Source: an uncultured Eubacterium sp. (GTDB lineage Bacteria; Bacillota; Clostridia; Peptostreptococcales; Anaerovoracaceae). From it: a stretch of DNA of 64,000 nucleotides. Positions 7,798-27,935 of this stretch are shown piece after piece; the first letter of the stretch is position 1; the number at the start of each line of letters is the position of its first letter. The notes under the pieces are model-generated. The model searched no databases and was not told where the DNA came from. It was given only the letters and a program-made list of their open reading frames with translations. The stretch lies in the NCBI GenBank assembly GCA_946555345.1, contig CAMNSS010000016.1:1-64000 (forward strand). Reading direction: 5' to 3'. Both the position numbers and the translations under genes were made by a program.

Positions 7798-7799
7798 CG

Positions 7800-12231: not shown

Positions 12232-15200
12232 TTGAAACTGAAATTTAAACAGCAGGAGTTCCAGACGGATGCAGTGAAGGCGGTATGCGCGCTGTTCGAC
12301 GGGCAGCAGCGGCAGACCGCAACTTTCAGCATGGAGCAGGGCGGCGGGCAGACAGAACTGTTTGCAAGCGTGGGAATTTCCAATGCGCTCTGCATTAACG
12401 ACCAGCGCATCATGGAAAACATGCAGGCAGTGCAGAAAAAGAACCTGCTCCCCCGGACGGAAGATTTACAGGGGCGGCAGTTTTCCATTGAGATGGAGAC
12501 GGGAACGGGCAAAACCTACGTTTACACGAAAACCATTTATGAATTGAACCGCCTGTACGGTTTTACCAAGTTTATCATCGTCGTGCCGGGCGTGGCGATC
12601 CGTGAAGGCGTGTACCAATCGTTGCAGGCCACACAGGAGCATTTTGAAACGCTTTATGATCATGTGCCATGCCGCTATTTTATCTACAACAGCGCCAGAC
12701 TGTCCGACGTGCGGCAATTTGCCACCAATGCAAACATCGAGATCATGATCATCAACATCGACGCATTCCGCAAGGCTGAAAACGTGATCAACCAGCAACA
12801 GGACAGGCTGAACGGGGATGCGGCCATCAGGCTGGTTCAGGCTGTCCGTCCCATTGTCATCATCGACGAGCCGCAGAGCGTGGACAATACGAAAAAAGCA
12901 AAGGACGCAGTCGCATCCCTTGCGCCTCTGTGCGTGCTGCGCTATTCCGCAACCCACAGGGAAAAGATCAACCTGCTTTACCGCCTGACCCCCGTGGATG
13001 CTTACCGGATGGGGCTTGTCAAGCAGATCTGCGTATCCTCCAGCCAGGCGGCGGGCGGCTTTAACCGGCCGTATATCCGGCTGCTTTCCGTTTCATGCGA
13101 AAAGGGATTTTCGGCAAGGATTGAAATCGACAGGCTGGGAAAGGACGGGAAAGTAAGCCGCAAAACCATTTCCGTAAAACCGGGCGCAGACCTTTACAGG
13201 CTGTCCGGAAACCGCGGGCTTTATGAGGGGTATGCTGTCTCCGGCATTGACTGCACGCCGGGAATGGAACAAATTGAATTATCCGGGTCTGAAACGATAC
13301 GGCTGGGAAAAGCCATCGGCGACATTGATGAGAACCTCATCAAGCGTATGCAGATCCGCCGGACCATTGAAGCCCATCTGGACAAGGAACTTGCGTACAC
13401 GGAAAAAGGGATCAAGGTACTGTCCCTGTTTTTCATCGACGAGGTGAAAAAATACCGCACCCCGGAGGGAAGAAAAGGCGTTTATGCGCAGATGTTCGAG
13501 GAAGTTTACGGGGAACTGATGGAACAGTCGAAGTACGCCGATTTGAAAAGGCAGTTTCCCTTTGGTTGTTCCGCTGTCCATGACGGGTATTTTTCACAGG
13601 ATAAAAAAGGCAGCTATAAAAATACCAGGGGCGATACGCTGGCGGACGCCAGCACCTACAATACGATCATGAAAGACAAAGAGTGGCTTTTGTCCTTTGA
13701 TTGCCCGTTGCGTTTCATCTTTTCACATTCTGCCTTAAAAGAGGGATGGGATAATCCCAATGTGTTCCAGGTCTGCACGCTGATTGAACAGAAAAGTACC
13801 CTGACCGCCCGGCAGAAGGTGGGGAGGGGCTTGCGCCTCTGCGTCAACCAGGATGGGGAACGGGTTGAGGACCGGAACATCAACCTCCTGCACGTCATGG
13901 CAAATGAGAGCTTTGCGGAGTTTGCCAGCACGCTCCAGAAGGAGATGGAAGAAGAAACAGGCGTAAAGTTTGGGGCTTTGCAGCTTGATTTATTCAGCGG
14001 CATGGTGTTTGAAGAAACGAAAATCGAGGAAACGCCATTAAGCGGGCAGCAGGTGCAAACGCTGTTATCCCACCTTGCGGGGGAGGGCTTTATAAACCTA
14101 GATAAAACATCTGTGCGGAGCGAACCGCCGGACTTGGCTGAGCTTCCCCAAGAGCTGGAAACAGCGAAACAAAAAGCCGTTGAAGTGATTGCCCGCAAGG
14201 GAAGCATCACCCCTGCGGATGTGACGCAGCTGACGGCGGAGAAAACAGTCGTGATCCAGACACGGCTGACTTATGACGATGCGCAGCAGCTCATGACCCA
14301 CTTTGAGGAAAAGGGATACATCACAAAATCCGGTCGGATAAAGGACAGCATGAAAAATGCCGTACAGGAAGGGACACTTGCGCTGCCGGCCTGTTTTGAA
14401 AACGCAAGAACGCAGCTTGTAGAAGCCATCCGCCGCACAGATACGAAGCTCCCTGTGCGGGATGCTACCCGTGACGTGGCAGTAAAGCTGAAAAAGGAAG
14501 TGATGCTGTCGCCGGAATTTCTGGAACTGTGGGACAAAATAAAGCAGAAGACCACTTACCGCGTCCGAATTGATGAGGAAGAGCTGGTGCGGCGGGCTGT
14601 CCGGGGGTTAAAGGAGATGGAGCCGATCCCCAAAGCGCGCATCGTAACCCGGACGGCGGACATCCAGATAGACTCGCCGGGCGTGGCTTATGCCGAGCGT
14701 GGAATTAAGGCTTCTGATCTTGCGGACAGCTACCCGTCCCTGCCGGATATCCTTGCCATCCTTGACAAACAGACCATGGCGCGGCGCAGCGTGATTGCGG
14801 AAATCCTGAAACAGAGCGGAAGGGGGCAGGATTTTTTGAACGATCCGCAGATGTTCCTTGAGAATGCCGTGCAGGTGATCCGGGACGCCTGTTCCTCCCT
14901 TGCTATTGACGGGATCAGCTACAGGAAGCTGCATGGGGCGGAGTATTATGTGCAGGAGATTTTTGACAGTGCGGAGCTGATCGCAAACTTGGACAGGAAT
15001 GCCGTGCCTGTGGAACGCAGCGTATATGACCATATTGTGTATGACAGCGCAGTTGAAAACCGTTTTGCCCTTGAACTTGACAGTGACGATGATGTCAAGA
15101 TGTTTTTTAAGCTGCCCGGACGCTTTCAGGTGGATACGCCCATCGGGACTTATAACCCGGACTGGGCGGTCTGTGTGGAAATTGACGGCGAGAAAAAGCT

Positions 15201-15363
15201 GTACTTTATTTTGGAAACGAAAGGCAGCACAAACGAACTGGATTTGCGCGGGCGCGAAAACCTGAAAATCCGATGCGGCAAAGCGCATTTTCAGGCTGTT
15301 GCAAGCGGCGTCGAGCTTCATGCTGCGACAAGCTGGCCGGACTTTAAGTTGCGCAACGGGTAA
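12232..15363 (+). CDS. res: Type III restriction endonuclease subunit (Res)
   Basis: A 1,043-residue ATP-dependent translocase and nuclease. The helicase motif I is SIEMETGTGKTYVYTK near residue 90, motif II is IVIIDEPQSVDN near residue 210, later helicase motifs include LRYSATHRE, SALKEGWDNPNVFQVC and ARQKVGRGLRL, and the C-terminal nuclease domain of the PD-(D/E)XK kind reads YNPDWAVCVEIDG then FILETKGSTN near residues 973 to 1000. The TTG start is chosen because AGGAGG lies 8 bases upstream. The frame is complete, so with Mod this should be a working restriction system carried by the element. Confidence 0.95.
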   Translation: MKLKFKQQEFQTDAVKAVCALFDGQQRQTATFSMEQGGGQTELFASVGISNALCINDQRIMENMQAVQKKNLLPRTEDLQGRQFSIEMETGTGKTYVYTKTIYELNRLYGFTKFIIVVPGVAIREGVYQSLQATQEHFETLYDHVPCRYFIYNSARLSDVRQFATNANIEIMIINIDAFRKAENVINQQQDRLNGDAAIRLVQAVRPIVIIDEPQSVDNTKKAKDAVASLAPLCVLRYSATHREKINLLYRLTPVDAYRMGLVKQICVSSSQAAGGFNRPYIRLLSVSCEKGFSARIEIDRLGKDGKVSRKTISVKPGADLYRLSGNRGLYEGYAVSGIDCTPGMEQIELSGSETIRLGKAIGDIDENLIKRMQIRRTIEAHLDKELAYTEKGIKVLSLFFIDEVKKYRTPEGRKGVYAQMFEEVYGELMEQSKYADLKRQFPFGCSAVHDGYFSQDKKGSYKNTRGDTLADASTYNTIMKDKEWLLSFDCPLRFIFSHSALKEGWDNPNVFQVCTLIEQKSTLTARQKVGRGLRLCVNQDGERVEDRNINLLHVMANESFAEFASTLQKEMEEETGVKFGALQLDLFSGMVFEETKIEETPLSGQQVQTLLSHLAGEGFINLDKTSVRSEPPDLAELPQELETAKQKAVEVIARKGSITPADVTQLTAEKTVVIQTRLTYDDAQQLMTHFEEKGYITKSGRIKDSMKNAVQEGTLALPACFENARTQLVEAIRRTDTKLPVRDATRDVAVKLKKEVMLSPEFLELWDKIKQKTTYRVRIDEEELVRRAVRGLKEMEPIPKARIVTRTADIQIDSPGVAYAERGIKASDLADSYPSLPDILAILDKQTMARRSVIAEILKQSGRGQDFLNDPQMFLENAVQVIRDACSSLAIDGISYRKLHGAEYYVQEIFDSAELIANLDRNAVPVERSVYDHIVYDSAVENRFALELDSDDDVKMFFKLPGRFQVDTPIGTYNPDWAVCVEIDGEKKLYFILETKGSTNELDLRGRENLKIRCGKAHFQAVASGVELHAATSWPDFKLRNG

Positions 15364-15566
15364 AACATTGGAAAATATGATGCTGATAACAAGGAGATGC
15401 ATTGCATGAAATATTCTGGCCAGCAGCGTATATAGAAAATATGTGAATATTTGTAAAAGCTGCTTGGATATATTGGGGAAAAAAGAAGGCGCGTTTCAAA
15501 TAGACTTTCCCTGCGGGGCATGGTACAATGGAAGAAAGCAGGGGACAGGAGAAAGGCGGTGAAGGG

Positions 15567-16412
15567 ATGGAAAAAGAAAACCGAGAGCATAAGGACAGTG
15601 TGTTTGTGGACCTCTTCTATGGGGATGAGGGGGCGCAAAAGAACCTGCTGAGCCTCTATAACGCACTGCATGATACGGATTTGCAGGATGAAGCCCTGAT
15701 TCATAAGGTGAAAATCGAGGATGTGTTCTACAAGAATTTTAAAAATGACATTTCGTTTGAGGTAAACGGGCAGGTGCTGGTCTTTGGGGAGCATCAGTCC
15801 ACCAAAAATCCCAACCTCCCGTTGCGATGCCTCTTATATGTAGGAAGAGCCTATGAACAACTGGTCGAAGAAGAGGCCAAATACCGTACAAGTCTGGTAA
15901 AGATTCCCACGCCGGAATTTTACACTTTCTATAACGGAAAAGCGGACTATCCGCTGGAGCAGGAACTGCGGCTGTCCGATGCATTTCTGACGTCGGCAGG
16001 AAACAACACCGTGGAACTAAAAGTGACAGCTATCAATATCAATTCGGATAAGGCGCATCGGATTTTGGAGAAATGTCCGGTATTAAAGGAGTACAGTCTA
16101 TTTATCGATACCGTAAGAAAATATGGAGAGGATGAAGGCGCCTTAAAAAAAGCCATCAATGAGTGCATAGAAAAGGGGATTTTGGCGGAGTACCTGAAGC
16201 GAAAAGGGAGCGAGGTGAGGAACATGCTAATCGCAGAATACAGCTACGAAAAGGACATTGAGGTTAAGCAGAGAGAAGCCTGGCAGGAAGGACAGATGGA
16301 ACTGCTTTATGAGCTGGCCAGCCAGGGTCTGCTGTCCATAAAAGATGCAGCAATTCAGGCGGGAATGGAAGAACATGCATTCCAAGAACAAATGAAGCAG
16401 CGGGAGCAATAA
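15567..16412 (+). CDS. rpn: Rpn family PD-(D/E)XK nuclease (recombination-promoting nuclease / putative transposase family)
   Basis: A protein of about 281 residues with the Rpn layout: DSVFVDLFYGDEGAQKNLLSLYNAL at the start, then the nuclease core DISFEVNGQVLVFGEHQST (conserved D, E and Q) and NPNLPLRCLLYVGR. The C-terminal region is a variable helical tail with WQEGQMELL. ATG at 15567 is preferred (GTGAAGGG upstream); an in-frame ATG at 15528 adds 13 residues. Rpn proteins promote recombination and several act as phage-defence toxins controlled by a short product of their own 3' end. An internal ATG at 16295 behind AGGAAGG could give such a product of 38 residues. Confidence 0.85.
   Translation: MEKENREHKDSVFVDLFYGDEGAQKNLLSLYNALHDTDLQDEALIHKVKIEDVFYKNFKNDISFEVNGQVLVFGEHQSTKNPNLPLRCLLYVGRAYEQLVEEEAKYRTSLVKIPTPEFYTFYNGKADYPLEQELRLSDAFLTSAGNNTVELKVTAININSDKAHRILEKCPVLKEYSLFIDTVRKYGEDEGALKKAINECIEKGILAEYLKRKGSEVRNMLIAEYSYEKDIEVKQREAWQEGQMELLYELASQGLLSIKDAAIQAGMEEHAFQEQMKQREQ
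16223..16291 (+). repeat. Direct repeat copy 1 (rpn tail)
   Basis: A 69-base segment inside rpn that recurs at 16439 to 16507 with three differences. It encodes MLIAEYSYEKDIEVKQ and the start of the glutamine/tryptophan/glycine tail. Confidence 0.92.
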
Positions 16413-16430
16413 CAAATATTTGGCATAAGG

Positions 16431-16652
16431 ATGAGGAGCATGCTAATCGCAGAATACAACTACGAAAAGGACATTGAGGTTAAGCAGAAAGAAGCCTGGC
16501 AAGAAGGCTGGCAAGAAGGCTGGCAGGAAGCCGAAGATAGGATGATTCTGGAGCTGCAACAGAAAGGCTTTTTGCCGGAGCAAATTACAGAACTTGCAGA
16601 AAAGAAGATAGAAGAAGCCAAGAAATCTCTTCTTAAAAAAAAGTTTTATTAA
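16431..16652 (+). CDS. Detached second Rpn C-terminal tail
   Basis: A 73-residue frame that begins with the same MLIAEYNYEKDIEVKQ segment as the end of the upstream rpn gene, then has three WQEG/WQEA repeats and a different ending (QQKGFLPEQITELAEKKIEEAKKSL) typical of Rpn C-terminal tails. It follows the rpn stop by 18 bases. It is either the remains of a second rpn allele whose front has been lost, an alternative tail cassette, or a stand-alone short form comparable to the inhibitory short Rpn products. Start could be ATG 16431 or ATG 16440. Confidence 0.6.
   Translation: MRSMLIAEYNYEKDIEVKQKEAWQEGWQEGWQEAEDRMILELQQKGFLPEQITELAEKKIEEAKKSLLKKKFY
16439..16507 (+). repeat. Direct repeat copy 2 (detached rpn tail)
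   Basis: Matches 16223 to 16291 at 66 of 69 bases, in the same orientation, 147 bases after the first copy ends. Recombination between the copies would swap the rpn tail and remove the original ending. Confidence 0.92.
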
Positions 16653-16685
16653 GGAATAAAGAGCCAGTAAAGAAATGGCATCGGA

Positions 16686-16727
16686 AAGGGAGACACTTCG
16701 TAAGGAAGTTGTCTCCCTTCGGCTTTT
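16686..16727 (+). terminator. Terminator-like hairpin after rpn region
   Basis: AAGGGAGACACTTC pairs with GAAGTTGTCTCCCTT across GTAAG with one bulged base, and the sequence continues CGGCTTTTG. It would end the rpn transcript. Confidence 0.65.
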
Positions 16728-16786
16728 GTAATCAGTCAGAATGATTAGATTGTAGGTAAAATCAATCATATTGGAGGATTACAAAA

Positions 16787-16873
16787 ATGAAACAGCATTT
16801 TATTGACAAAACTATGAATAATATTCGGAACAGAGCAACAGAAATTGTAAATAAGGATTTGATTTATCGGTAA
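16787..16873 (+). CDS. Very short ORF with good ribosome binding site
   Basis: A 28-codon frame starting MKQHFIDKTMNNIRNRATE, nine bases after TTGGAGG (16771 to 16777) and followed by a strong terminator hairpin. It may be a small peptide gene or the front of a deleted gene. No family is recognised. Confidence 0.4.
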   Translation: MKQHFIDKTMNNIRNRATEIVNKDLIYR

Positions 16874-16878
16874 GTTAA

Positions 16879-16914
16879 AATAGGCAGGGATGATATTTTA
16901 TCACCCTGCCTATT
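16879..16914 (+). terminator. Strong hairpin terminator
   Basis: AATAGGCAGGG and TGATA pair with TATCA and CCCTGCCTATT, with one bulged A and a three-base loop, followed by TGTTGT. It closes the short ORF at 16787. Confidence 0.75.
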
Positions 16915-16960
16915 TGTTGTATATGATTGTTTTTTTGTAAAATTGAGAACAATATCGTTT

Positions 16961-17042
16961 ACACCGTAGCGGACAATTTCGGCGATAGCTGCCGAATCAA
17001 TCAGCATTCTGTTGGGTATTATCAAATACTCGGCTACGGTGT
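16961..17042. repeat. Inverted repeat in spacer before merR
   Basis: ACACCGTAGC (16961 to 16970) is repeated inverted as GCTACGGTGT (17033 to 17042), enclosing 62 bases. No gene was seen between 16,915 and 17,091. The repeat could be a structural RNA, or a scar of a lost element. Confidence 0.5.
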
Positions 17043-17091
17043 GTCATAGTATTAAAATCAGCTCCCCCGAAAAGGCGACTGTTACATATAT

Positions 17092-17910
17092 CTATTTATT
17101 CTTTTTACAGCCGATTGTGATCATTGTAATGTAATCGTCACGGTCTTGTAAGGTCATTTCGTTCAAGCCTTCTTCATAGGCATATCCAAACAGTTCCATT
17201 TGATTTTTCTCTGCAAATTTTACGATATTTTGGTAAACCGTCTCAATCTTGTCCCAGCCGCCTATGCAAAAGGCACGCAGATAAGTTCCGGCAGGGCGCA
17301 TGGTATCGTAAACTTCAATATCCTCTCTGCCATAAGCAAAAAAGCAGTCATAGTCATGGTAGTTTCCGTTTATGATTTGATCTGCCGTAATCCGGCTCCC
17401 GAAATTATCATAAAGACCGAATATTGTTTTCAGCCGCAGAGAAAATTCCCCGGCTACTGCAAAATCGTCGTCATCATAGGCACCCGTAATTGGACCGCTG
17501 AGCAAAATGCGCTGCGCAGGGAGCGTGATGACTTCTATCTCCCCGTCCTTTGCCGTAAGGCTCAAGGAGAGTTTGTTTGATTTTTGTTCTAAAAAAGTTT
17601 TCGTATTTAAGAGTTCCTGAATGGATTTATCAATGAACTGCTTCTTCTCGGCGATCAGATCTGCAAAGGAAGCCCCGGAGGGACTTTGCTGATAACGGAT
17701 AATTTCGTCAATCGACAATCCGATTTTTCGCAGTGTTACAATCAATTCCAGCTGTACGGTTTGAAAGCAGGTATAATAACGGTATCCGTTTTCTTCCTTA
17801 AATTCGGGAGAAAACAGTCCAATTTCATCATAATAATGCAAAGTGCGCTTATTTATTCCGTTGAGTTTCGCAAACTGTCCCGTGGTGTATAAAAATTTTT
17901 TATTTTTCAT
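17092..17910 (-). CDS. MerR family regulator with C-terminal effector domain
   Basis: A 272-residue transcription activator. The N-terminal MerR helix-turn-helix reads FLYTTGQFAKLNGINKRTL and HYYDEIGLFSPEF, followed by a dimerisation helix (about residues 80 to 110) and a GyrI/BmrR-like effector domain that should bind a small hydrophobic compound. ATG at 17910 is chosen because AAGAGG lies 7 bases upstream; a second ATG is at 17913 and the longer frame to 18018 runs through the promoter. It is divergent from the GNAT and ABC genes and very likely controls them, through the operator at 17922 to 17952. Confidence 0.9.
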   Translation of the reverse strand: MKNKKFLYTTGQFAKLNGINKRTLHYYDEIGLFSPEFKEENGYRYYTCFQTVQLELIVTLRKIGLSIDEIIRYQQSPSGASFADLIAEKKQFIDKSIQELLNTKTFLEQKSNKLSLSLTAKDGEIEVITLPAQRILLSGPITGAYDDDDFAVAGEFSLRLKTIFGLYDNFGSRITADQIINGNYHDYDCFFAYGREDIEVYDTMRPAGTYLRAFCIGGWDKIETVYQNIVKFAEKNQMELFGYAYEEGLNEMTLQDRDDYITMITIGCKKNK

Positions 17911-17921
17911 CATAAAACCTC

Positions 17922-17952
17922 TTGACCTTACAGCTACTGTATAATTCATACT
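17922..17952 (+). promoter_or_regulatory. MerR-type promoter/operator with stretched 19-bp spacer
   Basis: TTGACC (17922 to 17927) and CATACT (17947 to 17952) are separated by 19 bases, and the spacer starts TTACAGCTACTGTA, a dyad that fits drug-responsive MerR operators. It faces the GNAT gene. The over-long spacer is the hallmark of promoters that MerR proteins switch on by twisting the DNA. Confidence 0.75.
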
Positions 17953-17994
17953 ACCGTATGACAAAGAAAATTGCAAGCAGACAGGAGCAAACAT

Positions 17995-18531
17995 ATGGAT
18001 ATTTTGAATGAGAAGCAAAAATCGTGGAAAGAAATCAAAGAGATTTACCTTGAAGCTTTCCCCAAGTCCGAACGAAAACCGTTTTGCACGATTCAGTATT
18101 CTGTAAAAACAGGAAAAGCACAGCTGCTGACGGCTATGGAGAATAGGATTTTACAAGGCTTCATTATGGTGATCCCATACAAAGATATGGTTATGGTGGA
18201 TTATTTGGCGGTATCCGGGAAAATTCGCAGCCGTGGAACAGGCAGTAAAATACTGCAAGAGGTATGCAGGCACTTTCCTGACAAAAAAATCGTTCTTTTA
18301 ATTGAAAAGCTTGACGACAGCGCTGAAAACAAAGAACAGCGAATTGCCAGACGAAAGTTCTATTTCAAAAACGGTTTCACTTCCTCGAATATTTATATCA
18401 CCGGACATAGCGGCAATATGGAAATTCTGAACTTCGGCGGCACGGTATCTTTGCAGGAATATATGGATTTACAGCGGTACGCTTTAGGAAAGCTGATGTT
18501 TCGTCTGTCCGGAATCCGTCCGGCGGTATGA
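17995..18531 (+). CDS. GNAT family N-acetyltransferase
   Basis: A 178-residue acetyltransferase. The acetyl-CoA loop reads VDYLAVSGKIRSRGTGSKIL (residues about 66 to 85), and a second conserved block is ARRKFYFKNGF. ATG at 17995 follows CAGGAGC; a longer frame from 17971 has no ribosome binding site. It is the first gene after the MerR operator and upstream of two ABC half-transporters, so an antibiotic- or toxin-modifying role is plausible, but the substrate cannot be read from the sequence. Confidence 0.88.
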   Translation: MDILNEKQKSWKEIKEIYLEAFPKSERKPFCTIQYSVKTGKAQLLTAMENRILQGFIMVIPYKDMVMVDYLAVSGKIRSRGTGSKILQEVCRHFPDKKIVLLIEKLDDSAENKEQRIARRKFYFKNGFTSSNIYITGHSGNMEILNFGGTVSLQEYMDLQRYALGKLMFRLSGIRPAV

Positions 18532-18597
18532 GAAACACCCTGCGGGTATCCCTTTATGCGCAAAAAGCTGCGCAAGAATAAGGAAAGGAGTAATTAT

Positions 18598-20322
18598 ATG
18601 AAAACTATTTTTTCAAAGGTAAAATTGAAGGGGCGGCAGATTATGCTGTTGTCCGTATTGGTTTTGTTTGCAGCGGTTGCAGAAATGATGCTGCCTTCGC
18701 TGCTTGCTCAGATGATTAACAGCGGGGTAACGGATTCCTCGCAAAGCACTATTTTCCTGCTCGCCGCTGTGATGGCGGGTGTTGCGGCCCTTGCCTGTAT
18801 TGTCAATTTTCTTTCTGTGCGAATCGCTTCCCGTATTTCCACAGATTTTTCGGCAGTGCTTCGTGGGCAGATTTTTGAAAAGGTACAGAGTTTTTCTGCC
18901 GCCGAACTTGATAAATTTGGTACAGCCAGCTTAGTGACTCGAAGCACTTCTGATATTACAAACATTCAGAACTTCCTTACGATGCTTTTGCGTATTGGCA
19001 TTCTGGCGCCTATGATGGCGGTGGCGGGCTTGATTTTTTCCGCTGCTACCGGCGGTCAGGTCAGTTCCGTCCTCACCGTTGCAATCCCGGTGCTGCTAGT
19101 TGGGTGCGGTATTGTTATCCTGCTTGCGTCCCGTTATTCGATTAAGCTCAGACAGAAGCTTGACAGGATCAATCAGTTGTTTTTGGAATCTTTGGAGGGC
19201 GTTCGTGTCATCCGTGCTTTCAATAAACAAAAGACCGAGAGCCTGCGTTTTGACGAAGCAAATACGGATTATGCTGCCACAGCGATGACATCGGGGCGAA
19301 TTACAAGCCTTTTACTGCCGGTCATCAATGTGATTTTCGGCGTAACTACAACGGCGGTTTTAGGGCTTGGCGCACATTATGTGGAAACCGGCGCTATGGA
19401 AGTCGGCTCGCTGGTGGCGAACAGCCAGTATATCAGTATGGTGCTGATGTCGGTCATGATGTTGGCCCTTGTGATTATGATGTTCCCTACGGCATATGCC
19501 TGTGCAGGGCGCATTGCAGAGGTGCTTAACACGGAAACAAGTATTCAGGATGGAGCATTTTCTTTGCAGGATCGTCCGTTGCGTTCTACGGTAGAATTCC
19601 GTCATGTGACTTTTGCGTACCCCGGAGCGCCTGAACCGATTTTGAAAGATATTAGTTTTGAAACGCACCCCGGAGAAATTACTGCCATTATCGGCGGAAC
19701 GGGACGAGGTAAATCCAGTATATTGAAACTGATTCCACGCCTGTACGATCCCTTGTTCGGAGAAGTTTTGATTGACGGCGTAAACGCTAAGGAATATGCA
19801 GTAGACGATCTTCGAGCGCTGATTGGCTATGTCCCGCAGAAAAATGTTTTGTTTTCAGGCGATATTGCATCTAATCTGAATTTTGGAAAAAATGACGGAA
19901 CTGAACAGGATTGGCAGGCGGCAGCCCAAATTGCGTGTGCTGAGGAATTTATCACGAAAAAAGAAAACGGGTATCATGGCAGGATCGCACAGGGCGGAAC
20001 AAACCTTTCCGGTGGTCAGCGCCAGCGCATGGCGATTGCAAGAGCGATTATGAAAAAGCCTGAAATCTATGTGTTTGACGACAGCTTTTCGGCGCTGGAT
20101 ATGAAAACCGACCAAACCCTCCGCAAAAATCTAAAGGCGGCAATGGGAAGAGCCACCATCATTATGGTGGCGCAGCGGGTCAGCACGATTTTAGATGCAG
20201 ACCGCATTTTAGTAGTTGACGACGGAATGATCGTTGGTCAGGGAACGCATAAAGAACTGCTCCAAACCTGCCCTCTCTATCGTGAGATTGCGGAAATACA
20301 GTTGGGAAAGGAGGCTGTTTGA
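18598..20322 (+). CDS. ABC half-transporter with fused ATPase (multidrug type), first of pair
   Basis: A 574-residue exporter half: six membrane segments in the first 300 residues, then an ATPase domain with Walker A variant GGTGRGKSS near residue 374, signature LSGGQRQRMAIARA and Walker B YVFDDSFSALD. The usual ABC catalytic glutamate after Walker B is aspartate/serine here (DDS), as in the degenerate half of many heterodimeric exporters of the BmrCD/LmrCD kind. The Walker A has R in place of A/S before GK. ATG at 18598 follows AAAGGAG. The partner gene starts two bases after its stop. Confidence 0.93.
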   Translation: MKTIFSKVKLKGRQIMLLSVLVLFAAVAEMMLPSLLAQMINSGVTDSSQSTIFLLAAVMAGVAALACIVNFLSVRIASRISTDFSAVLRGQIFEKVQSFSAAELDKFGTASLVTRSTSDITNIQNFLTMLLRIGILAPMMAVAGLIFSAATGGQVSSVLTVAIPVLLVGCGIVILLASRYSIKLRQKLDRINQLFLESLEGVRVIRAFNKQKTESLRFDEANTDYAATAMTSGRITSLLLPVINVIFGVTTTAVLGLGAHYVETGAMEVGSLVANSQYISMVLMSVMMLALVIMMFPTAYACAGRIAEVLNTETSIQDGAFSLQDRPLRSTVEFRHVTFAYPGAPEPILKDISFETHPGEITAIIGGTGRGKSSILKLIPRLYDPLFGEVLIDGVNAKEYAVDDLRALIGYVPQKNVLFSGDIASNLNFGKNDGTEQDWQAAAQIACAEEFITKKENGYHGRIAQGGTNLSGGQRQRMAIARAIMKKPEIYVFDDSFSALDMKTDQTLRKNLKAAMGRATIIMVAQRVSTILDADRILVVDDGMIVGQGTHKELLQTCPLYREIAEIQLGKEAV

Positions 20323-20323
20323 C

Positions 20324-22063
20324 ATGAAAAATCATACTTTCAAACGACTTTTCGGATATTTGAAAGCCCATCGTCTGCGCCTGTTCTTCGTTTTACTGTT
20401 TGCTTCTGTTAGCACTATTTTTACCGTTATGGCTCCGTTTGTAATCGGTAAAGTCACAACGACCCTCTTTGACAGTATCCGGGACGGCGTGTTTTATTGG
20501 GAAACCATTCTTTGGCTGCTTGCAGCGCTGGTGTGTCTGTATCTGGTATCGCAGTTCTTTTCCTTTTTGCAGGGATTTCATATGGCAAAGATCACGGCAA
20601 ATGCAATGCGTGAAATCCGCAGCGACATAGATGAGAAAATGCACCGGTTGAAGCTGAATTACTATGATACGCATACCCACGGCGATATTCTCAGCGTGAT
20701 TACCAATGATGTCGATACCATCAATAATACTGTCAGCCAAAATCTGACCTCAATCGTTACACAGGTCATTACCGCAATCGGGATTCTTATTATGATGCTG
20801 GCAATCAGTCCGAAACTGACGCTGATCCCGATTATTATGGTGCCGTTGTCACTGCTAAGCGCAGCAGGCGTTATGAAATCCGGCAGCAGGCATTACGGAA
20901 AACAGCAGGAGCTGTTGGGACAGCTCAACGGATATATTGAAGAAATGTATAACGGTCAACAGGTCGTGCAGTCCTTTAGTTATCAGGACAGGGCAAAACA
21001 GGGCTTTTCTGCACTGAATGAGGCGTTGAAGAATAGTTCCTATAAGGCGGAAACAACCGCAGGGGCAGTCAGCCCGATCACTACTTTCGTAAATGATATG
21101 GGGTATATGGTTTGTGCAGCAATCGGCTGCCTGCGTGCCATAGGCGGCTTTATTACCGTGGGAAATGTGCAGGCCATGCTGGAATATACCCGTCGGTTTG
21201 CCGAACCGTTTTCTTCTTTGGCCGGTATGGCAGGAAGTTTTGGCGCAGCAAAGGCCGCAGGAGATCGGATTTTTGCCCTGCTGGACGCAGGGGAAGAATT
21301 GCCGGACGCAGAACACGGTATCATGCCGAAAGACCGCTCCGGCAGCGTAACTTTTCAAAATGTTCAATTCGGATATACGCCTGACCGTATGCTGATGAAC
21401 GGTGTGAATTTGACAGTAAAGCCCGGTCAAAAAGTTGCGATCGTTGGTCCCACCGGCGCAGGCAAGACGACTCTTATCAATCTGCTAATGCGTTTCTATG
21501 AGACGGGCGGCGGCGCTATTACGGTAGACGGTGTAAATATATGCGATATGCCAAGAGAAGAACTGCGGGATCGCTTTGGTATGGTTTTACAGGACACTTG
21601 GCTCTTTGAAGGAACGATTGCCGATAACTTGGGATATGCAGAAGAAAATATGGACAGAAACAAAATCATTGCTTCGGCAAAGTCCGCCTGCGCCCACAAT
21701 TTTATCAAAACGCTTCCCGGCGGGTATGATATGGAGCTTTCAAAAGGAGCGGAAAATATTTCACAGGGCGAGCGTCAGCTTCTCACCATTGCCCGCGCCA
21801 TCGCTTCCGATCCTGAAATTATGATTCTGGATGAAGCGACGAGTAATGTAGATACCCATACGGAGGTTTTAATTCAGCGTGCCATGGCGCAGCTTATGAA
21901 AGGCCGCACCAGCTTTGTGATTGCGCACCGTCTTTCTACCATTCGTGACGCCGATATGATTTTGTATATGGAGGACGGAGATATAAAGGAAGTCGGCAAT
22001 CACGATGAATTGATGGATAAGAACGGAAAATACGCCGCTCTGTATAACAGCCAATTTGCATAA
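20324..22063 (+). CDS. ABC half-transporter with fused ATPase, second of pair
   Basis: A 579-residue exporter half with six N-terminal membrane segments and a complete ATPase: Walker A GPTGAGKTT near residue 370, signature ISQGERQLLTIARA, and Walker B MILDEATSNVD with the catalytic glutamate. Together with the preceding half, whose Walker B is degenerate, it should form a heterodimeric multidrug exporter with one competent site. ATG at 20324 follows GGAAAGGAGG. The gene ends 21 bases before a serine recombinase remnant, so the MerR-GNAT-ABC set probably arrived as a unit. Confidence 0.95.
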   Translation: MKNHTFKRLFGYLKAHRLRLFFVLLFASVSTIFTVMAPFVIGKVTTTLFDSIRDGVFYWETILWLLAALVCLYLVSQFFSFLQGFHMAKITANAMREIRSDIDEKMHRLKLNYYDTHTHGDILSVITNDVDTINNTVSQNLTSIVTQVITAIGILIMMLAISPKLTLIPIIMVPLSLLSAAGVMKSGSRHYGKQQELLGQLNGYIEEMYNGQQVVQSFSYQDRAKQGFSALNEALKNSSYKAETTAGAVSPITTFVNDMGYMVCAAIGCLRAIGGFITVGNVQAMLEYTRRFAEPFSSLAGMAGSFGAAKAAGDRIFALLDAGEELPDAEHGIMPKDRSGSVTFQNVQFGYTPDRMLMNGVNLTVKPGQKVAIVGPTGAGKTTLINLLMRFYETGGGAITVDGVNICDMPREELRDRFGMVLQDTWLFEGTIADNLGYAEENMDRNKIIASAKSACAHNFIKTLPGGYDMELSKGAENISQGERQLLTIARAIASDPEIMILDEATSNVDTHTEVLIQRAMAQLMKGRTSFVIAHRLSTIRDADMILYMEDGDIKEVGNHDELMDKNGKYAALYNSQFA

Positions 22064-22084
22064 TAGCGATTACACATAAAAACA

Positions 22085-22231
22085 ACACTCAGGGAACTCA
22101 CGCCCGAACTGATACACGAATTTATAGACAGGATTATCGTGTATGCACCGAGATACCTTGACGGCAAGTGTGTTCAGTTAATGGATATCTACTACAAATA
22201 TTCTGGACAAAAATTGTTAAATAGAGTATAA
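22085..22231 (+). pseudogene. C-terminal remnant of a serine recombinase
   Basis: Read in frame from 22085, the DNA gives TLRELTPELIHEFIDRII, then VYAPRYLDGKCVQLMDIYYKY and ends LLNRV before a stop at 22231. This is the conserved C-terminal end of large serine recombinases (DUF4368-type). No start codon or upstream part is present because the ABC gene ends just before it. It marks the edge of a former mobile element that brought in the exporter genes. Confidence 0.75.
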
Positions 22232-22366
22232 ATATAATATAAATAGTTATTTTTTGACATTTTAAGAAATTACATTTTACAAGAAACAGCTACGGCAACG
22301 GTACAAGGATGTGAGGGGCATAGCAGTATTCGATGAAAAATGTCAGAAATGGAAAATTGTTATTAG

Positions 22367-22397
22367 ATGCCAATCCATATACGGGTTGGCATTTTTC
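22367..22397 (+). terminator. Hairpin terminator
   Basis: ATGCCAATCC pairs with GGGTTGGCAT (one G-T pair) across a six-base loop and is followed by TTTTC. The remaining stretch from 22,232 to 22,498 holds no gene; TTGTCGAAT occurs twice in tandem at 22,406 to 22,424. Confidence 0.7.
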
Positions 22398-22498
22398 ATT
22401 ACATATTGTCGAATTTTGTCGAATGAGGAATATGGCTGAAAGGCTCTGCTGCATTTTGTTAATCGAAAGTGGCAGCCGCAAATAGCAAAATATCCATG

Positions 22499-22547
22499 AC
22501 CTCCAGGTTTCAGCAACGTTAATGGTTTGAAATTTGGAGGTTTTTTT
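22499..22547 (+). promoter_or_regulatory. Hairpin that buries the ribosome binding site of the sigma-like gene
   Basis: ACCTCCAGGTTTC (22499 to 22511) can pair with GAAATTTGGAGGT (22529 to 22541) over 13 positions with two mismatches. The right arm contains the TTGGAGG ribosome binding site and is followed by seven T residues that run directly into the ATG at 22548. The same structure therefore looks like a Rho-independent terminator and a translation block at once, a likely off-switch for the regulator. Confidence 0.65.
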
Positions 22548-23090
22548 ATGAGAAATACAAAGAATCAATTATTTCAGGTATATGATTTCCGTGAAGAATA
22601 CGGAAACAGCCCGGATAAGATTAAACACATCATTGCTACAGACCTGACTGTTGAAGAGACGATAAAGAAATTGGCAGAAGCGGGCATTGACATAGAAGAA
22701 TTGAAACCGTTCATTCTTCTGCCGCTTGGCTATAAAGAGGTGTTTAATGAAGCCTTTCGCAATGAAAAGAAACATGAACGAAGAAACCGCCTTTATGGAG
22801 AGTTCCACGGATATGAAGATGGCGTTTTTGAGTTACATCATAAAGAATGCGCAAATAGCCTGGACTATATCGAAGAGGTATTTGCATATGAAAAGAAAAT
22901 GAGGCAGGAGGAAATAAAACGGTTGGATGAAGCCATGAAAAAATTGACCGAAATACAGCGCAGGAGGCTTCGTATGTATTATTATGATAATCTTGATTTC
23001 CACCAGATTGCCAGAAAGGAGCACAGAAGCAGGAATGCAATCAGGGATTCAATCCGCCTTGCACTGAAAAAAATACAAAAGTTTTTTTGA
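22548..23090 (+). CDS. Sigma-70 region 4-like regulator of the element
   Basis: A 180-residue protein with an acidic, helical N-terminal half and a C-terminal sigma region 4-like helix-turn-helix (LTEIQRRRLRMYYYDNLDF, then QIARKEHRSRNAIRDSIR). Such small sigma-like proteins are common in Tn1549-type elements and sit in their regulatory region. ATG at 22548 is chosen because TTGGAGG lies at correct spacing; a frame from 22527 has none. Expression is probably limited by the upstream hairpin. Target promoters are unknown; excision or transfer genes are the natural guess. Confidence 0.85.
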   Translation: MRNTKNQLFQVYDFREEYGNSPDKIKHIIATDLTVEETIKKLAEAGIDIEELKPFILLPLGYKEVFNEAFRNEKKHERRNRLYGEFHGYEDGVFELHHKECANSLDYIEEVFAYEKKMRQEEIKRLDEAMKKLTEIQRRRLRMYYYDNLDFHQIARKEHRSRNAIRDSIRLALKKIQKFF

Positions 23091-23540
23091 AAAAATACTC
23101 CCTTTTTGACCCGGAAAATCGGAATAAGTGAAAGGGCTTTTGAAAAAACAGCTTAAATCAATTTGCACATTGAAAACAGAATACCAAGGCATTGGATACG
23201 TTCTTTCTGGTCAGGCGATGAGCCGGAGCGCCGTTAGGGGATACGCCATAGCGATGATATATCCGCCTGTAAATAACAGTCGGCAGCTGTTAAGCGCCAT
23301 GACAACCAGAAAGCATAATGATACGCCCGTCCAGCCACAGCAGCACGCAATGGGGGCGGCCGCATGAGAACCATGCAGTGGTGCAATTCCAGTGGAGCAG
23401 GGTAGCTGCCTGCCATCCAATGCCTTTATTATGAAATGTTTTGACAGATTTAACAGATGTGACGCACGAAGGGATGCATTTGTCAAATGTGCCAAGACAT
23501 AGGTTATATTTTATATAAAGTGTAGATACTCTTTATATGA
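23091..23540. other. Long spacer without a convincing gene
   Basis: About 450 bases lie between the sigma-like gene and the next promoter. An open frame at 23128 to 23367 exists but has no ribosome binding site and no protein-like composition. The sequence from 23,200 to 23,420 is clearly richer in G and C than its surroundings. At 23,511 to 23,538 ATATAAAG and CTTTATAT form an 8-bp inverted repeat that could be an operator. I cannot name what this stretch does. Confidence 0.4.
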
Positions 23541-23569
23541 TTGACTTCAAACAGGATATCGATTAAAAT
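23541..23569 (+). promoter_or_regulatory. Sigma-A-type promoter of the AAA/DUF4143 gene
   Basis: TTGACT (23541 to 23546) and TAAAAT (23564 to 23569) are 17 bases apart, 43 bases before the start codon. An 8-bp inverted repeat lies immediately upstream. Confidence 0.7.
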
Positions 23570-23611
23570 AAAATAGCAATTTATAAAACACGGAAAAGGG
23601 CGGGGGATGCC

Positions 23612-24838
23612 ATGTATATTAACCGACATTTAGAAAATCAAATTCTTGAAGCTTCCAAGTTTTATCCGGTTGTAATGGTAACCGGGCAAAGGCAGGCCGG
23701 CAAGTCAACAATGCTCAACCACATAAAGGAAAACAGGCGAAAATATGTTACGCTGGATGATGGCAATGCGCGCAGGCTGGCGATGCAGGACCCGGCTCTT
23801 TTCTTTGAAGTGTATGGTTATCCGTTATTGATTGACGAATTCCAGAGGGCGCCCTCTATTTTGCTGGAAATGAAAAAAATCGTCGATGAAAAAGCGCTGG
23901 GCGGTGAAGACAATAGCGGCATGTTTTGGATAACAGGGTCGCAGAAGTTTAAAATGATGAAGGACGTATCAGAATCGTTGGCCGGAAGGATTGCAATCTT
24001 TGATATGGCAAGCCTTTCGGCGGCAGAAATCGAAGAAAGACCCGCGCAGCTATTCAAGCCGGATGTGGATTCCATTAAGGACAGGATGGTGTATGCCAAA
24101 AGGAAAGACATCCATAAAATTTATGAAGACATTTTCAGGGGCGGGATGCCTAAATTGCATGCAACGCAAGTCGATCGGGAACGGTATTACATGGATTACG
24201 TTAACACTTATATTGAAAGGGACATCAAGGATTTGGCGCAGGTCGGGAAGCTCAATGCGTTTTATGACTTCCTTGTTTATATGGCAGCCCGTACCGGGCA
24301 GGAGTTAAAATATGATGACATAGCGAATGCAATCAATATATCTGCGCCGACAGCGAAAGCATGGGTATCGATCCTTGAAAGATCGGGGATTATCTATATT
24401 TTAAGACCTTATTATTCTAACATTACGAAGAGGCTGGTCAAAACGCCGAAGGTTTATTTTTTAGATACGGGGTTAGTTGCATATTTATGCAGGTGGCCGA
24501 ATGCAGAAACAATTGCTAACGGACCGATGGACGGGGCTTTCTTTGAAACATATGTTGTTTCTGAAATTGTAAAGAACTATTACAATTCTGGCAAACAGGC
24601 TGATTTATATTATTACCGGGATACCGATAAAAAGGAAATAGACCTTCTTATTATTGAAGGCAATAAAATATACCCTGTTGAGATCAAAAAGAGCAAGCAG
24701 CCACTAAAACCTGATAAAAATTTCGATGTGTTAAAGAAGCTGAATTTTGAAGTACAGCCGGGGGTTATTATTTGCATGAGCGACGAATTGATACCGTATA
24801 ATCGGAATGCTTGGTATTGTCCAGTTTCGGCAATATAA
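23612..24838 (+). CDS. AAA-type ATPase with DUF4143 nuclease-like C-terminal domain
   Basis: A 408-residue protein of the AAA_14/DUF4143 family. Walker A is VTGQRQAGKSTML (residues 23 to 35), Walker B is LLIDEFQRAPS, and sensor-like WITGSQKF follows. The middle holds a winged-helix-like part (YDDIANAINISAPTAKAWVSIL) and the C-terminus shows a PD-(D/E)XK-like pattern: KKEIDLLIIEG then YPVEIKKSK. The family is widespread and poorly understood; links to mobile elements, stress and defence are common. Here it has its own promoter and terminator, so it behaves as a single-gene cargo unit. Confidence 0.9.
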   Translation: MYINRHLENQILEASKFYPVVMVTGQRQAGKSTMLNHIKENRRKYVTLDDGNARRLAMQDPALFFEVYGYPLLIDEFQRAPSILLEMKKIVDEKALGGEDNSGMFWITGSQKFKMMKDVSESLAGRIAIFDMASLSAAEIEERPAQLFKPDVDSIKDRMVYAKRKDIHKIYEDIFRGGMPKLHATQVDRERYYMDYVNTYIERDIKDLAQVGKLNAFYDFLVYMAARTGQELKYDDIANAINISAPTAKAWVSILERSGIIYILRPYYSNITKRLVKTPKVYFLDTGLVAYLCRWPNAETIANGPMDGAFFETYVVSEIVKNYYNSGKQADLYYYRDTDKKEIDLLIIEGNKIYPVEIKKSKQPLKPDKNFDVLKKLNFEVQPGVIICMSDELIPYNRNAWYCPVSAI

Positions 24839-24902
24839 ATCAGTTGTATGATATTCTGACATCGAAGCCAAATAAAGCGTATAGAAAACTTAATAAAACG
24901 CT

Positions 24903-24946
24903 AAAGCAATGCATTGAAACGGAATCTGTATTATGCATTGCTTTTT
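24903..24946 (+). terminator. Hairpin terminator after the AAA gene
   Basis: AAAGCAATGCAT pairs perfectly with ATGCATTGCTTT across 18 bases and is followed by TT. Confidence 0.8.
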
Positions 24947-25060
24947 ATATGCATGAAAAAAATAAGCATCACTTTTGCAACAGGCATTTTACCGGGGAAG
25001 GAATTATTTTATATCGATAATCATAGAGTTTATTGAGTGATTAAGGATTGGAGGCAAGAC

Positions 25061-25219
25061 ATGAAAAACGTGCAAAATAGTTCATATGGAAGTGATCAGA
25101 CAGTCAATGGATATAAAATAGAGAGGAATTATGGAAAAGAATCAATAAAAAATTGTATGTTGCAAGTGATACGGATGGTAATAACGCAGAATATACAAGA
25201 TAAACGAAAAACGATATGA
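25061..25219 (+). CDS. Small ORF just upstream of the serine recombinase
   Basis: A 52-residue frame starting MKNVQNSSYGSDQTVNGYK, with GGAGG at 25050 to 25054. The segment YKIERNYGKESIKNCMLQVI is typical in style of the very small proteins that precede large serine recombinases in Firmicute elements (TnpW-like). It could be an accessory or directionality factor, but no family match was proven. It lies 40 bases before the recombinase start and is read in the same direction. Confidence 0.55.
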   Translation: MKNVQNSSYGSDQTVNGYKIERNYGKESIKNCMLQVIRMVITQNIQDKRKTI

Positions 25220-25261
25220 TAACGGTAATCATTATATATGTTGCTGGGAAAGGAGAATATG

Positions 25262-26854
25262 ATGAAATTAAAAGCGGCAATATATTGCAGGTTATCGAAA
25301 GAAGATATTGATAAAGCATCATCGGGACAGGAAAGTGAATCTATTGTAAACCAGACATTGATGTTGTTGGATTTTGTAGAGCAAAAGGGCTTTGAGCTAT
25401 ATGATATTTACAAAGATGATGATTATTCAGGGTTGTATGATGACAGGCCAGGTTTTGAAAGGCTTATCAAGGATGCTGAAGATGGGAAATTTAATATTGT
25501 AATTGCAAAAAGCCAATCACGTTTTACGAGGAATATGGAACATCTGGAACGATATATCCATCATGATTTTCCACTTTGGGGAATCAGGTTCATCGGGATG
25601 GTCGATAATGCAGACACAGAAGTGAAAGGCAACAAGAAAGCAAGACAAATCAATGGTTTAGTCAATGAGTGGTATTGTGAAGACTTATCCGAGTCAATCA
25701 AGGCAAGTTACCGTATTAAGCAGAAAAAAGGACAATTTCTTGGGTCGTCTACACCATATGGATATCTGAAAGACCCAAAAGACAATCATCATCTGATACC
25801 TGATCCATATGCAGCAGATGTTGTTAAGAGAATCTTTCACATGTATTTGAGCGGCATAGGGAAAGCGCAAATCGGGCAAATACTGACGAAAGAAGGCATT
25901 TTAATTCCCACAGAATATAAAAGACAGGTTTTAAAAATCAATTACCATAATGCAATGCAAAAATACGGGGATGATTGCAGATGGTCGTTTCAGACAATAC
26001 ATGGAATTTTGAAAAACGAAGTGTATATTGGCAATCTGGTACAAAACAAATGCCGAAAAAAATCTTACAAGGACAAGTCGAAAAAAGCTGTCCCACAAGA
26101 AGAATGGATTAGGGTCAACAATACACATGAACCTATAATCAGTAAAGAAATCTTCGACAGGGTACAGGAACAATTAAAGGAAAGGGCTAGAAAAGTAAAC
26201 ATTGTTGCATTGGATGAAAATTTGTTTGCGAGAAGGCTTTTTTGTGGAGATTGCGGCAAGCCTTTTACGGTTTGTTATTCAAAACGAAATAAAAGGGGAG
26301 AACGATATCGAAAGTATATTTGCAGTGAATATAAGCAATGGGGAAATAAGTATTGTACAAGTCATTCTATACGAGAAGATGTATTGGAAGAAATCGTTCT
26401 CCAAGACCTCAGAAATCACGCATCAATGATTTTAACTGCGGAAAGCAAGAATATGTTAAATGAATTTAAGTGCATCAGTTCCTTTAACAATAAACCATCT
26501 GATGTAAAAAAGATAAAAGAAGAGCTGCAAAAGATTGAAAATTATAAAGTACAAGCATTTGAAAACTTTGTCGATGGGCTTCTTAATAAAAATGAGTATA
26601 TCAAATTGAAGGAAAAATACGAAAGCGATGAAAAAAAATTGCACGTTGCCTTGCAGAATTATGGAGGTGCTGTGTGCGAAAACATTGAAAAAACACAATT
26701 TGAAAAATGGCTATCTAGCTTTACCAACAATTTCAATGTAGAAGAGCTGACGCGGGAAATGGTTCTTAATTTAATTAACAGCATTTACATATTTGAGGAT
26801 AAACGGATACAGATTAACTATAGATTTGAATTTGCAGAGAAAAAAATAGGTTAA
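25262..26854 (+). CDS. Large serine recombinase (TndX/TnpX-like integrase of the element)
   Basis: A 530-residue site-specific recombinase. The resolvase domain begins AAIYCRLSKEDID with the nucleophilic serine at residue 12 and continues IVIAKSQSRFTRN. The recombinase domain covers about residues 155 to 290 (YGYLKDPKDN, WSFQTIHGILKNEVYIGNL), followed by a zinc ribbon (CGDCGKPFTVC, later YICSEY and YCTS) and a coiled-coil stretch near residues 400 to 460. ATG at 25262 lies 7 bases after AAAGGAG. It is complete and sits at the right end of the element, the position expected for the enzyme that inserted it into the carboxypeptidase gene. Confidence 0.95.
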   Translation: MKLKAAIYCRLSKEDIDKASSGQESESIVNQTLMLLDFVEQKGFELYDIYKDDDYSGLYDDRPGFERLIKDAEDGKFNIVIAKSQSRFTRNMEHLERYIHHDFPLWGIRFIGMVDNADTEVKGNKKARQINGLVNEWYCEDLSESIKASYRIKQKKGQFLGSSTPYGYLKDPKDNHHLIPDPYAADVVKRIFHMYLSGIGKAQIGQILTKEGILIPTEYKRQVLKINYHNAMQKYGDDCRWSFQTIHGILKNEVYIGNLVQNKCRKKSYKDKSKKAVPQEEWIRVNNTHEPIISKEIFDRVQEQLKERARKVNIVALDENLFARRLFCGDCGKPFTVCYSKRNKRGERYRKYICSEYKQWGNKYCTSHSIREDVLEEIVLQDLRNHASMILTAESKNMLNEFKCISSFNNKPSDVKKIKEELQKIENYKVQAFENFVDGLLNKNEYIKLKEKYESDEKKLHVALQNYGGAVCENIEKTQFEKWLSSFTNNFNVEELTREMVLNLINSIYIFEDKRIQINYRFEFAEKKIG

Positions 26855-26907
26855 AGCGGTTACTTTTCTCCTAAAAGTTCTCCCAATTAAACGCCACATG
26901 CGTGGCG
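26855..26907 (+). other. Right attachment junction of the element with the carboxypeptidase gene
   Basis: The recombinase stop is at 26854, and dac coding sequence is readable from about 26,899. Between them lies the right end of the element. CGCCACATGCGTGGCG at 26892 to 26907 is a near-perfect 16-base palindrome spanning the joint, a plausible recombinase arm. The crossover dinucleotide cannot be fixed without the left junction or an empty site. Confidence 0.75.
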
Positions 26908-27681
26908 CTGGCAGAACACTTATCAGGCAGCGTGGAAAGCTTCGTCGATTCCATGAACAACAGAGCCAAAGAGCTTGGCCTTAAAAACAGCCATTTCGTC
27001 AATACCAATGGGCTGCCTGTAGCAAATCACTATTCCTGTGCATATGATATCGGTATGATATCAAAGGAGCTGATGAAGCAAGAAGTGGCGCATCCATGGT
27101 TTACGGCATGGCAGGAGGATATCCAGGTAGGCCTTCCGGGAAAGAAGAGCAAGTTCACGTTGACGAATACAAACAAATTGATTCGCTCATATAATGGCGC
27201 GATCGGAACGAAAACAGGATATACGGAAAATGCGGGATACTGTCTTTCCGGAGCAGCGCAGCGGGAGTCAACCAGGCTGATCGGCGTCGTTTTAGGATGC
27301 AAAACCAGCGATATCAGATTTGCGGAAATGGGGCGGCTTCTGGATTACGGTTTTGCCAATTATGAGACCGTGCAGGTTGCGAAGGCGGGAAGCAAAATCA
27401 AGCAAGTCAGAATAGAAAAAGGCGATAATACGAAGCTCTTTGCCGTAGCGGAGGAATCTATCGGCCTTACCGTCCAAAAAGGCAACAAAAACAAAGTAAA
27501 GAAAAAAATCGAAATCGATAAAAACATCAAACTGCCGATTAAAAAAGGAGACCGAATTGGCATGATTGCCGTTTATGAAGGAAATGAAAAATCGGCGGAA
27601 TATGCGCTCGTCTCAGACCGGGATGTAGCGCGGGCGGGCTTTGTGACTACATACATACGGATGATAAAGAAACTCATATAA
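26902..27681 (+). pseudogene. dacF: 3' half of a D-alanyl-D-alanine carboxypeptidase gene split by the element
   Basis: The frame opens with VALAEHLSGSVESFVDSMN, sequence that in DacF/DacA-type penicillin-binding proteins follows directly on the SxN motif. The KTG motif is present (IGTKTGYTENAGYCLSG near residue 98), and the C-terminal beta domain is complete, ending with a short amphipathic or membrane stretch. The signal peptide, SxxK and SxN motifs are missing, so no active enzyme can be made from this half. GTG at 26902 has no ribosome binding site. Excision of the element should restore the gene. Confidence 0.9.
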
Positions 27682-27704
27682 GCTTGCAGAAGGGAGGCGT
27701 CCCT

Positions 27705-27935
27705 TTGAACGATAGAAGGTGCTACTTTTTCTTTGCCGGGTATCATACGGTTGCTACGGCTGCGGATGTTTTGGCCCGGTATCATATCGCAAGCCGAATC
27801 GTAAAAGCGCCGATAAGACTGCGGAACAGTTGCAGCTTTGCGGTCGTGGCCGATGAATATGATAAAGATATGGCGGTCTACGTGCTGGAAAGGGAAAATA
27901 TTCCAATCAGAAGGATCGAATATGCGGTACAGTAG
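27705..27935 (+). CDS. DUF3343 small protein
   Basis: A 76-residue protein starting at TTG 27705, eight bases after GGGAGG. It begins MNDRRCYFFFAGYHTVATA and includes LRNSCSFAVVADEYD. The pattern of a small protein with a phenylalanine-rich strand, an AxxxA helix and a short cysteine-bearing turn fits DUF3343, a family suggested to handle sulfur or selenium transfer. It lies 23 bases downstream of the carboxypeptidase gene and shares its transcript. Confidence 0.75.
   Translation: MNDRRCYFFFAGYHTVATAADVLARYHIASRIVKAPIRLRNSCSFAVVADEYDKDMAVYVLERENIPIRRIEYAVQ

Follow-up and report, generated by a model that had tools for sequence, protein, structure and literature searches.

Recombinase-bearing elements that split a spore gene whose halves rejoin are known from skin (in sigK), SPbeta (spsM), vfbin (spoVFB), gin (gerE) and yin (yabG), as described in passages of PMC5595907 and PMC10747680, according to which the shared core of gin measures 9 bp and lies within an imperfect inverted repeat. 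Passages of PMC10083194 (Durrant et al. 2022) likewise describe many diverged large serine recombinases that share one site in a conserved gene, with a prolyl isomerase and a Mg-chelatase among the single-site examples. The locus considered here lies in a window of 64,000 nucleotides (the whole stretch of DNA analysed) from an uncultured Eubacterium sp., and insertion into a D-Ala-D-Ala carboxypeptidase gene at this locus is both real and recurrent. To judge from the passages cited, the element belongs with the known sporulation-gene elements, as it lies within a gene that comparative evidence links to sporulation, its halves join in frame and its 9-bp core resembles that of gin, and also with the single-site serine recombinases. 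Unlike skin-type elements, it interrupts a predicted DacF-like target at a catalytic motif, and the carriers found at this site include a full ICE (integrative conjugative element), phage and small cassettes of 2.7-7 kb, in several families. Compared with the examples in those passages of PMC10083194, the target goes with sporulation and is cut at a catalytic-motif codon; the words "carboxypeptidase" and "peptidase" are absent from the main text of that paper, the part covered here. In the open-licence PMC literature, no element in dacF or another D-Ala-D-Ala carboxypeptidase gene appeared in the titles or abstract openings among the matches listed. The source recombinase is weakly similar to XisF of the fdxN element and to CcrB and CcrC of SCC (101.7, 128.9 and 104 bits), scores so far below the NCBIfam cut-offs (375, 900 and 900) that it is not a member of these families.

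The element extends over two contigs, C12 and C16, of which the latter holds the window. Their ends overlap by an exact 55 bp inside a reverse transcriptase gene, and the T4SS-DNA_transf domain is divided between them (positions 6-313 on C12, 319-438 on C16), the coupling-protein gene being split by an intron; the TraG/VirD4 halves and the overlap therefore place C12 beside C16 independently of the carboxypeptidase gene. Joined in this way, the element measures 50,448 bp from core to core. A relaxase, a coupling protein, a conjugation ATPase and an integrase are present between two att sites, and this predicted gene content assigns the unit to the ICEs. The conjugation ATPase is of the VirB4 type, and the element further encodes a NikA-like protein, a lysozyme/M23 hydrolase, ParA and ParB; Bacillota ICEs with serine integrases likewise combine a relaxase, coupling protein, VirB4-type ATPase, hydrolase, ParA/ParB and serine integrase, and the present element differs from them in its insertion site. 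Among the cargo genes are a restriction-modification pair, likely of type III, two genes for ABC transporters, one for a family 5 glycosidase and one for an AAA_14/DUF4143 ATPase (Table 1). The recombinase matches the PHROG 95 integrase family (E 1.4e-100) and clusters with other recombinases from the same carboxypeptidase site in a quick tree. Some smaller features may be recorded here. An intron-type reverse transcriptase gene splits TraG/VirD4 (window 1-1923 together with L005:1-2768); we read it as a group II intron, and its reading frame shifts at the C12/C16 join. The family 5 glycosidase (cellulase) gene lies within the element on the minus strand (window 8614-9666), and AAA-ATPase-like cargo near the recombinase was also seen by eye in four other elements at this site (L043, L050, L055, L056).

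Table 1. Coordinates of the element, its att site and the neighbouring host genes (window positions unless a contig is named)
Feature	Position	Strand	Basis
Right-hand 26.9 kb of the putative ICE	1..26898	+	Contig overlap, TraG halves, dac halves at the outer ends
Left-hand 23.6 kb of the putative ICE	G000:C12:1-23605		Same basis as the right-hand part
Reverse transcriptase/maturase, C-terminal part	34..1221	+	Weak RVT_1 match; N part of RVT_1 on C12
TraG/VirD4 coupling protein, C-terminal half	1231..1923	+	N half on C12 (L005:1503-2768)
VirB4/TraG P-loop conjugation ATPase	3489..5822	+	Pfam P-loop_TraG, E 9.1e-20
Conjugation-type peptidoglycan hydrolase, lysozyme-like + M23	5815..7341	+	Pfam
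DNA methylase, likely type III restriction-modification	9950-11806	+	N6_N4_Mtase (Pfam)
Res subunit, likely type III restriction-modification	12232-15363	+	ResIII, RE_endonuc (Pfam)
AAA_14/DUF4143 ATPase, cargo adjoining the recombinase	23612..24838	+	Pfam
Large serine recombinase (integrase), 538 aa	25238..26854	+	Resolvase, Recombinase, Zn_ribbon_recom
Stretch in which the element arm of attR lies (half of the near-palindromic attP)	26855..26898	+	Arm pairing
Core dinucleotide TG, cysteine codon of SAN-D-G-C	26899..26900	+	attL vs attR; centre of the attP palindrome
3' half of the interrupted DacF-like (predicted) D-Ala-D-Ala carboxypeptidase gene	26899..27681	+	Pfam; joined frame; uninterrupted orthologues
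Next host gene, Se_S_carrier	27684..27935	+	Pfam

The window carries the 3' half of the split gene (26902-27681; Pfam matches to Peptidase_S11 positions 110-238/239, E 1.7e-35, and to PBP5_C, E 1.9e-19), with its KTG codons at 27211-27219. A whole-genome S11 search located the 5' half at G000:C12:23597-23896(-), covering S11 positions 7-110, where it encodes SxxK (PPASVTK) and reads ...SANDGCVA before passing into element DNA. SxxK and SxN lie to the left of the element and KTG to its right, and joining the flanks at their common 9-bp TGCGTGGCG yields one open frame with SxxK, SxN, KTG and the C-terminal part. The sequence-only reading had placed the insertion between SxN and KTG, had proposed to look for the 5' half at the left end of the element and had held that excision would switch the gene back on; the first two points are borne out by the C12 flank, which supplies the missing 5' part of the split gene, and the mechanical part of the third by the in-frame join. 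Its distance of 47 bases likewise stands, as the half-gene ORF opens with the GTG at 26902, 47 bases past the recombinase stop, the core lying 44 bases past it. The reading had named a left flank from another gene, or a full-length copy of this one, as outcomes that would count against it. Neither was encountered: S11 matches occur at four places in the source genome, namely the two halves and paralogues on C2 and C17 that match the split gene at 36-42%, and the S11 search gave no uninterrupted copy of it in the 36-contig draft assembly. A little way downstream, a protein with five SH3_3 stretches is encoded at 28227-30512; by eye, SH3-like ORFs also lie 3' of the uninterrupted gene in L010 and L012, and a small ORF resembling the Se_S_carrier gene lies 3' of the orthologue in L009 and L011.

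The attL and attR of the source element share the 9-bp repeat, and the attP reconstructed from them is a near-palindrome around A-TG-C whose arms pair at 16/23 positions. Over this site, those of eight other two-ended loci (nine such loci were available, L047 repeating L044) and the unrecombined attP-like sites of L038, L145 and L147, 15-19 of 22-23 positions pair, and for each of them 0/5000 shuffles were as good. A symmetric attP that shares its central dinucleotide with attB, as expected of a large serine recombinase, is thus present. At the insertion place, the uninterrupted gene reads SANDGCVALAEHLSGS in four same-genus genomes. The sequence-only reading had also called for attB and circular junctions; among 12-base matches in the source assembly, no empty site or circle junction was recognised. 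There are seven such matches, two of which are the att sites, and TGCGTGGCGCTG matches two further places (C1, C27), the S11 search showing no additional S11 gene. An IMG/VR scan with the source attP gave no match, and one with a degenerate attP returned only the already known phage.

The same codon is occupied in many other bacteria. Recombinase relatives were drawn from a species-genome collection (69) and a class-wide sample (two), and a quick tree was built from 65 rows of at least 450 residues, the source recombinase included; L073, L099, L100, L101 and L105 were left out as too short. A branch with SH-aLRT 100 separates the source recombinase and 37 others from the remaining rows; the source row and L074 have long branches. 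With L073, L137 and L138, included on similarity alone (57%, 51% and 49% to a group member), the group amounts to 41 loci. The count of 32 dac-labelled loci in the tree and its "changes" figure understate the clustering, because L045, L056, L057, L072 and L074 are unlabelled in spite of their dac halves. A broken S11 half lies beside the recombinase in 40 of the 41 loci (the source element, 38 within the fetched loci, and L073 on the same contig), and in 39/41 the break falls at the equivalent codon of the same gene, one further locus (L138) being inserted in a distant S11 paralogue that is without the cysteine codon. Together with the parallels in sister groups considered below, this agrees with the earlier suggestion that a conserved catalytic-motif codon is a good target for a recombinase. 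Minor variants are a TC core in L048 and a stop at the cysteine codon in L072. The exception is L038, which has an unrecombined attP-like site together with an uninterrupted dac gene (L153) in its assembly; superoxide-dismutase- and rubrerythrin-like ORFs, by our reading, lie on the contig beyond that site, so that this element may be integrated elsewhere and is not counted as proof of excision.

Recombinase and split gene lie on the same strand in 24/38 loci and on opposite strands in 14/38. In the nine loci with both ends the elements span 2,746-7,008 bp, and in each of the nine a single frame results when the flanks are joined. Of the 3' halves, 23/24 end in a stop codon after 256-281 codons, the remaining one being cut by a contig end, and of the 5' halves, 22/23 are open for at least 138 codons as far as the cut, which fits either recent arrival or genes kept usable. 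A class-wide sample yielded a group recombinase (E<=1e-125) in 3/291 genomes, the source included, and an S11 half adjoins it in all three, that of L138 being the distant paralogue; further samples of 16 and 51 genomes gave no additional group-recombinase match. These loci constitute a clear case of mobile elements with different lifestyles that dock at a single codon of a conserved enzyme motif.

Several comparisons document movement. Three IMG/VR records of two phage types, recognised by tail genes, have an intact attP. Among these, L147 shares 98.2% identity over 2,562 bp with an integrated end (L066), the two diverging directly after the core into phage DNA and the dac gene, respectively. 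The recombinases of L059 and L061 differ by a dS of 0.01, whereas the 5' halves of their split genes differ by a dS of 0.75, a sign that the same site was entered recently in two species. L061 comes from the commensal isolate Petralouisia muris NM01; another such isolate with a split dac gene is Schaedlerella arabinosiphila DSM 106076 (L050). Vertical maintenance by selection of the insertions shared by L043, L044, L047 and L052 was considered and rejected, the pattern being mosaic and horizontal. In the host DNA upstream, G550 and G552 agree at 94-98%, and each of them agrees with G553 mostly at about 87% (pieces 78-93%); the elements of L043, L047 and L052 are 95-98% identical, and L043 and L047 share 86% identity over part of the 5' half. 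Because identity among the elements does not follow that among the hosts, the argument for long co-inheritance was dropped. In L052 and G553:C15, the cassette common to L043 and L047 holds about 9 kb extra between recombinase and attR, which suggests a nested second insertion.

The target gene accompanies sporulation. Orthologue-strength matches were found in 16/61 genomes, the source included, at a cut-off (E<=1e-50) chosen after viewing the list, in which these 16 lie at 2.1e-60 or better and the next at 8e-36. SpoIVA, which the source genome also has, occurs in 15/61, and all 15 carry the target gene (Fisher p = 2e-13, uncorrected for relatedness); the sixteenth carrier, G054, without a SpoIVA match, is 86% complete. 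In the source genus the same 5/37 genomes have both genes. Four of the 36 other same-genus genomes keep an uninterrupted orthologue with 66-75% identity, and 32/36, several of them incomplete, have no orthologue-strength match (E<=1e-50). A quick tree of C-terminal halves unites the source target, genes from other families of the order and the Lachnospiraceae targets in one clade (SH-aLRT 92), outside which falls the second dac gene, located after scpB in L058 and its kin. Neighbours of the target within the order are a XerD-like recombinase, a purine or pyrimidine nucleoside phosphorylase, ScpA, ScpB and GerW, as well as SpoIVA in G052. In B. subtilis, the dacF gene order is xerD-drm-punA-dacF. 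Passages in the literature place dacF of C. difficile under sigma G and say that it regulates spore peptidoglycan cross-linking (PMC3789822), list, among proteins required for sporulation, the one most similar to B. subtilis DacF (43.8%; PMC8417463) and describe DacB and DacF as affecting spore heat resistance (PMC5376575). The SH-aLRT 92 fork, the neighbours and this literature on other species point to a DacF-like target; the link of the insertion target to sporulation, through SpoIVA co-occurrence, the orthologue clade and the dacF literature, is an indirect one drawn from sequence comparison. The sequence-only reading had spoken of a switch for peptidoglycan cross-linking. A gene for a wall enzyme is indeed interrupted, but since it tracks sporulation and appears DacF-like, the process touched is most likely cross-linking of the spore cortex rather than of the vegetative wall.

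It seems probable that a 50,448-bp conjugative element has integrated through its own serine recombinase at a preferred attB in a DacF-like, sporulation-linked gene. The recombinase would pair its palindromic attP with the SAN-D-(G/A)-C-V-A codons and, following established serine-integrase chemistry, exchange strands at the TG of the cysteine codon. While the element is integrated the gene would be off and the enzyme lost; precise excision, as predicted, would restore the gene exactly, in keeping with the in-frame join observed. Such a site would suit the element because catalytic-motif codons vary little and growing cells seem able to do without the gene, to judge from its occurrence within the genus only in SpoIVA genomes, and excision would presumably be part of transfer or induction, not of a programme serving the host. 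An origin of the split in misassembly or chance, with halves from different genes or contigs wrongly read, might be entertained for a 36-contig draft; it is extremely improbable in view of the in-frame join at a common 9-bp core, the split TraG with its 55-bp overlap and a junction at this codon in 38 further loci, a recurrence in other assemblies that contradicts it. The element might also have inactivated a dispensable gene for good, so that excision no longer matters, as the 32/36 same-genus genomes (several incomplete) without an orthologue-strength match and the lack of a recognised empty site in the source assembly would allow. The seemingly intact recombinase ORF and both att arms, the undamaged dac halves and the SpoIVA still in the genome make such a permanent knock-out quite unlikely.

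A regulated switch, in which excision in sporulating cells or in part of the population rebuilds the carboxypeptidase gene as for skin/sigK and gin/gerE, accords with a target that tracks sporulation, with sister recombinases in two more genes leaning to SpoIVA genomes, with undecayed split halves, with cassettes down to 2,746 bp and with the precedent elements in sporulation genes in passages of PMC5595907 and PMC10747680. Such a switch is mechanically possible, and it would be one of the spore wall rather than the growth wall. Against it, no excision product was recognised in the source assembly, and element and host identity in L043, L044, L047 and L052 are out of step, with no sign of long co-inheritance. 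In addition, C. difficile dacF is described, in a passage of PMC3789822, as controlled by forespore sigma G. Excision in the forespore, unlike that of skin in the mother cell, would remove the element from the surviving line, which makes a skin-like programme less obvious; were the gene active in the forespore, an excised element would be lost to later generations unless it reintegrated. The evidence favours mobility over regulated excision, and the switch is regarded as rather doubtful.

Integration of a mobile element at a preferred codon, the reading preferred here, has parallels among the sister recombinases. The 31 other fetched relatives, examined by tblastn, show an S8 peptidase in six, a PRK06851-type ATPase in 23 and neither in L100 and L101. 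In the six (L075, L076, L077, L078, L102, L105) the S8 peptidase (subtilase) match starts or ends at GHGTH, and in the 23 (L079-L099, L103, L106) the recombinase lies in or beside the ATPase gene, as halves or copies. At cut-offs fixed beforehand, the ATPase (E<=1e-15) occurs in 13/15 SpoIVA genomes and 2/46 others among the 61, and the S8 peptidase (E<=1e-30) in 8/15 and 1/46, with none in the source genus; judging by these co-occurrence counts, all three targets lean to spore formers, S8 least. A tentative and somewhat speculative extension is that serine recombinases radiated onto conserved-motif codons of spore genes (SAN-D-x-C of DacF, GHGTH of the subtilase and DGTAPH of the PRK06851-type ATPase), making ICEs, phages and cassettes reversible switches of sporulation in Clostridia, including spore-wall cross-linking. 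The choice of docking codon appears linked to spore formation, and, should excision prove to be timed, commensal sporulation and spore resistance would depend on the state of a mobile element. With their defined TG core, the attP/attB pairs also offer ready material for integrase work. As to the sister loci themselves, the S8 subtilase gene is cut at or beside its catalytic His motif GHGTH in the six loci, and L075 has an uninterrupted dac gene some 1.7 kb past the split S8 gene. The PRK06851-type ATPase gene is cut after DGTAPH where the junction is visible, and that of L091 looks uninterrupted.
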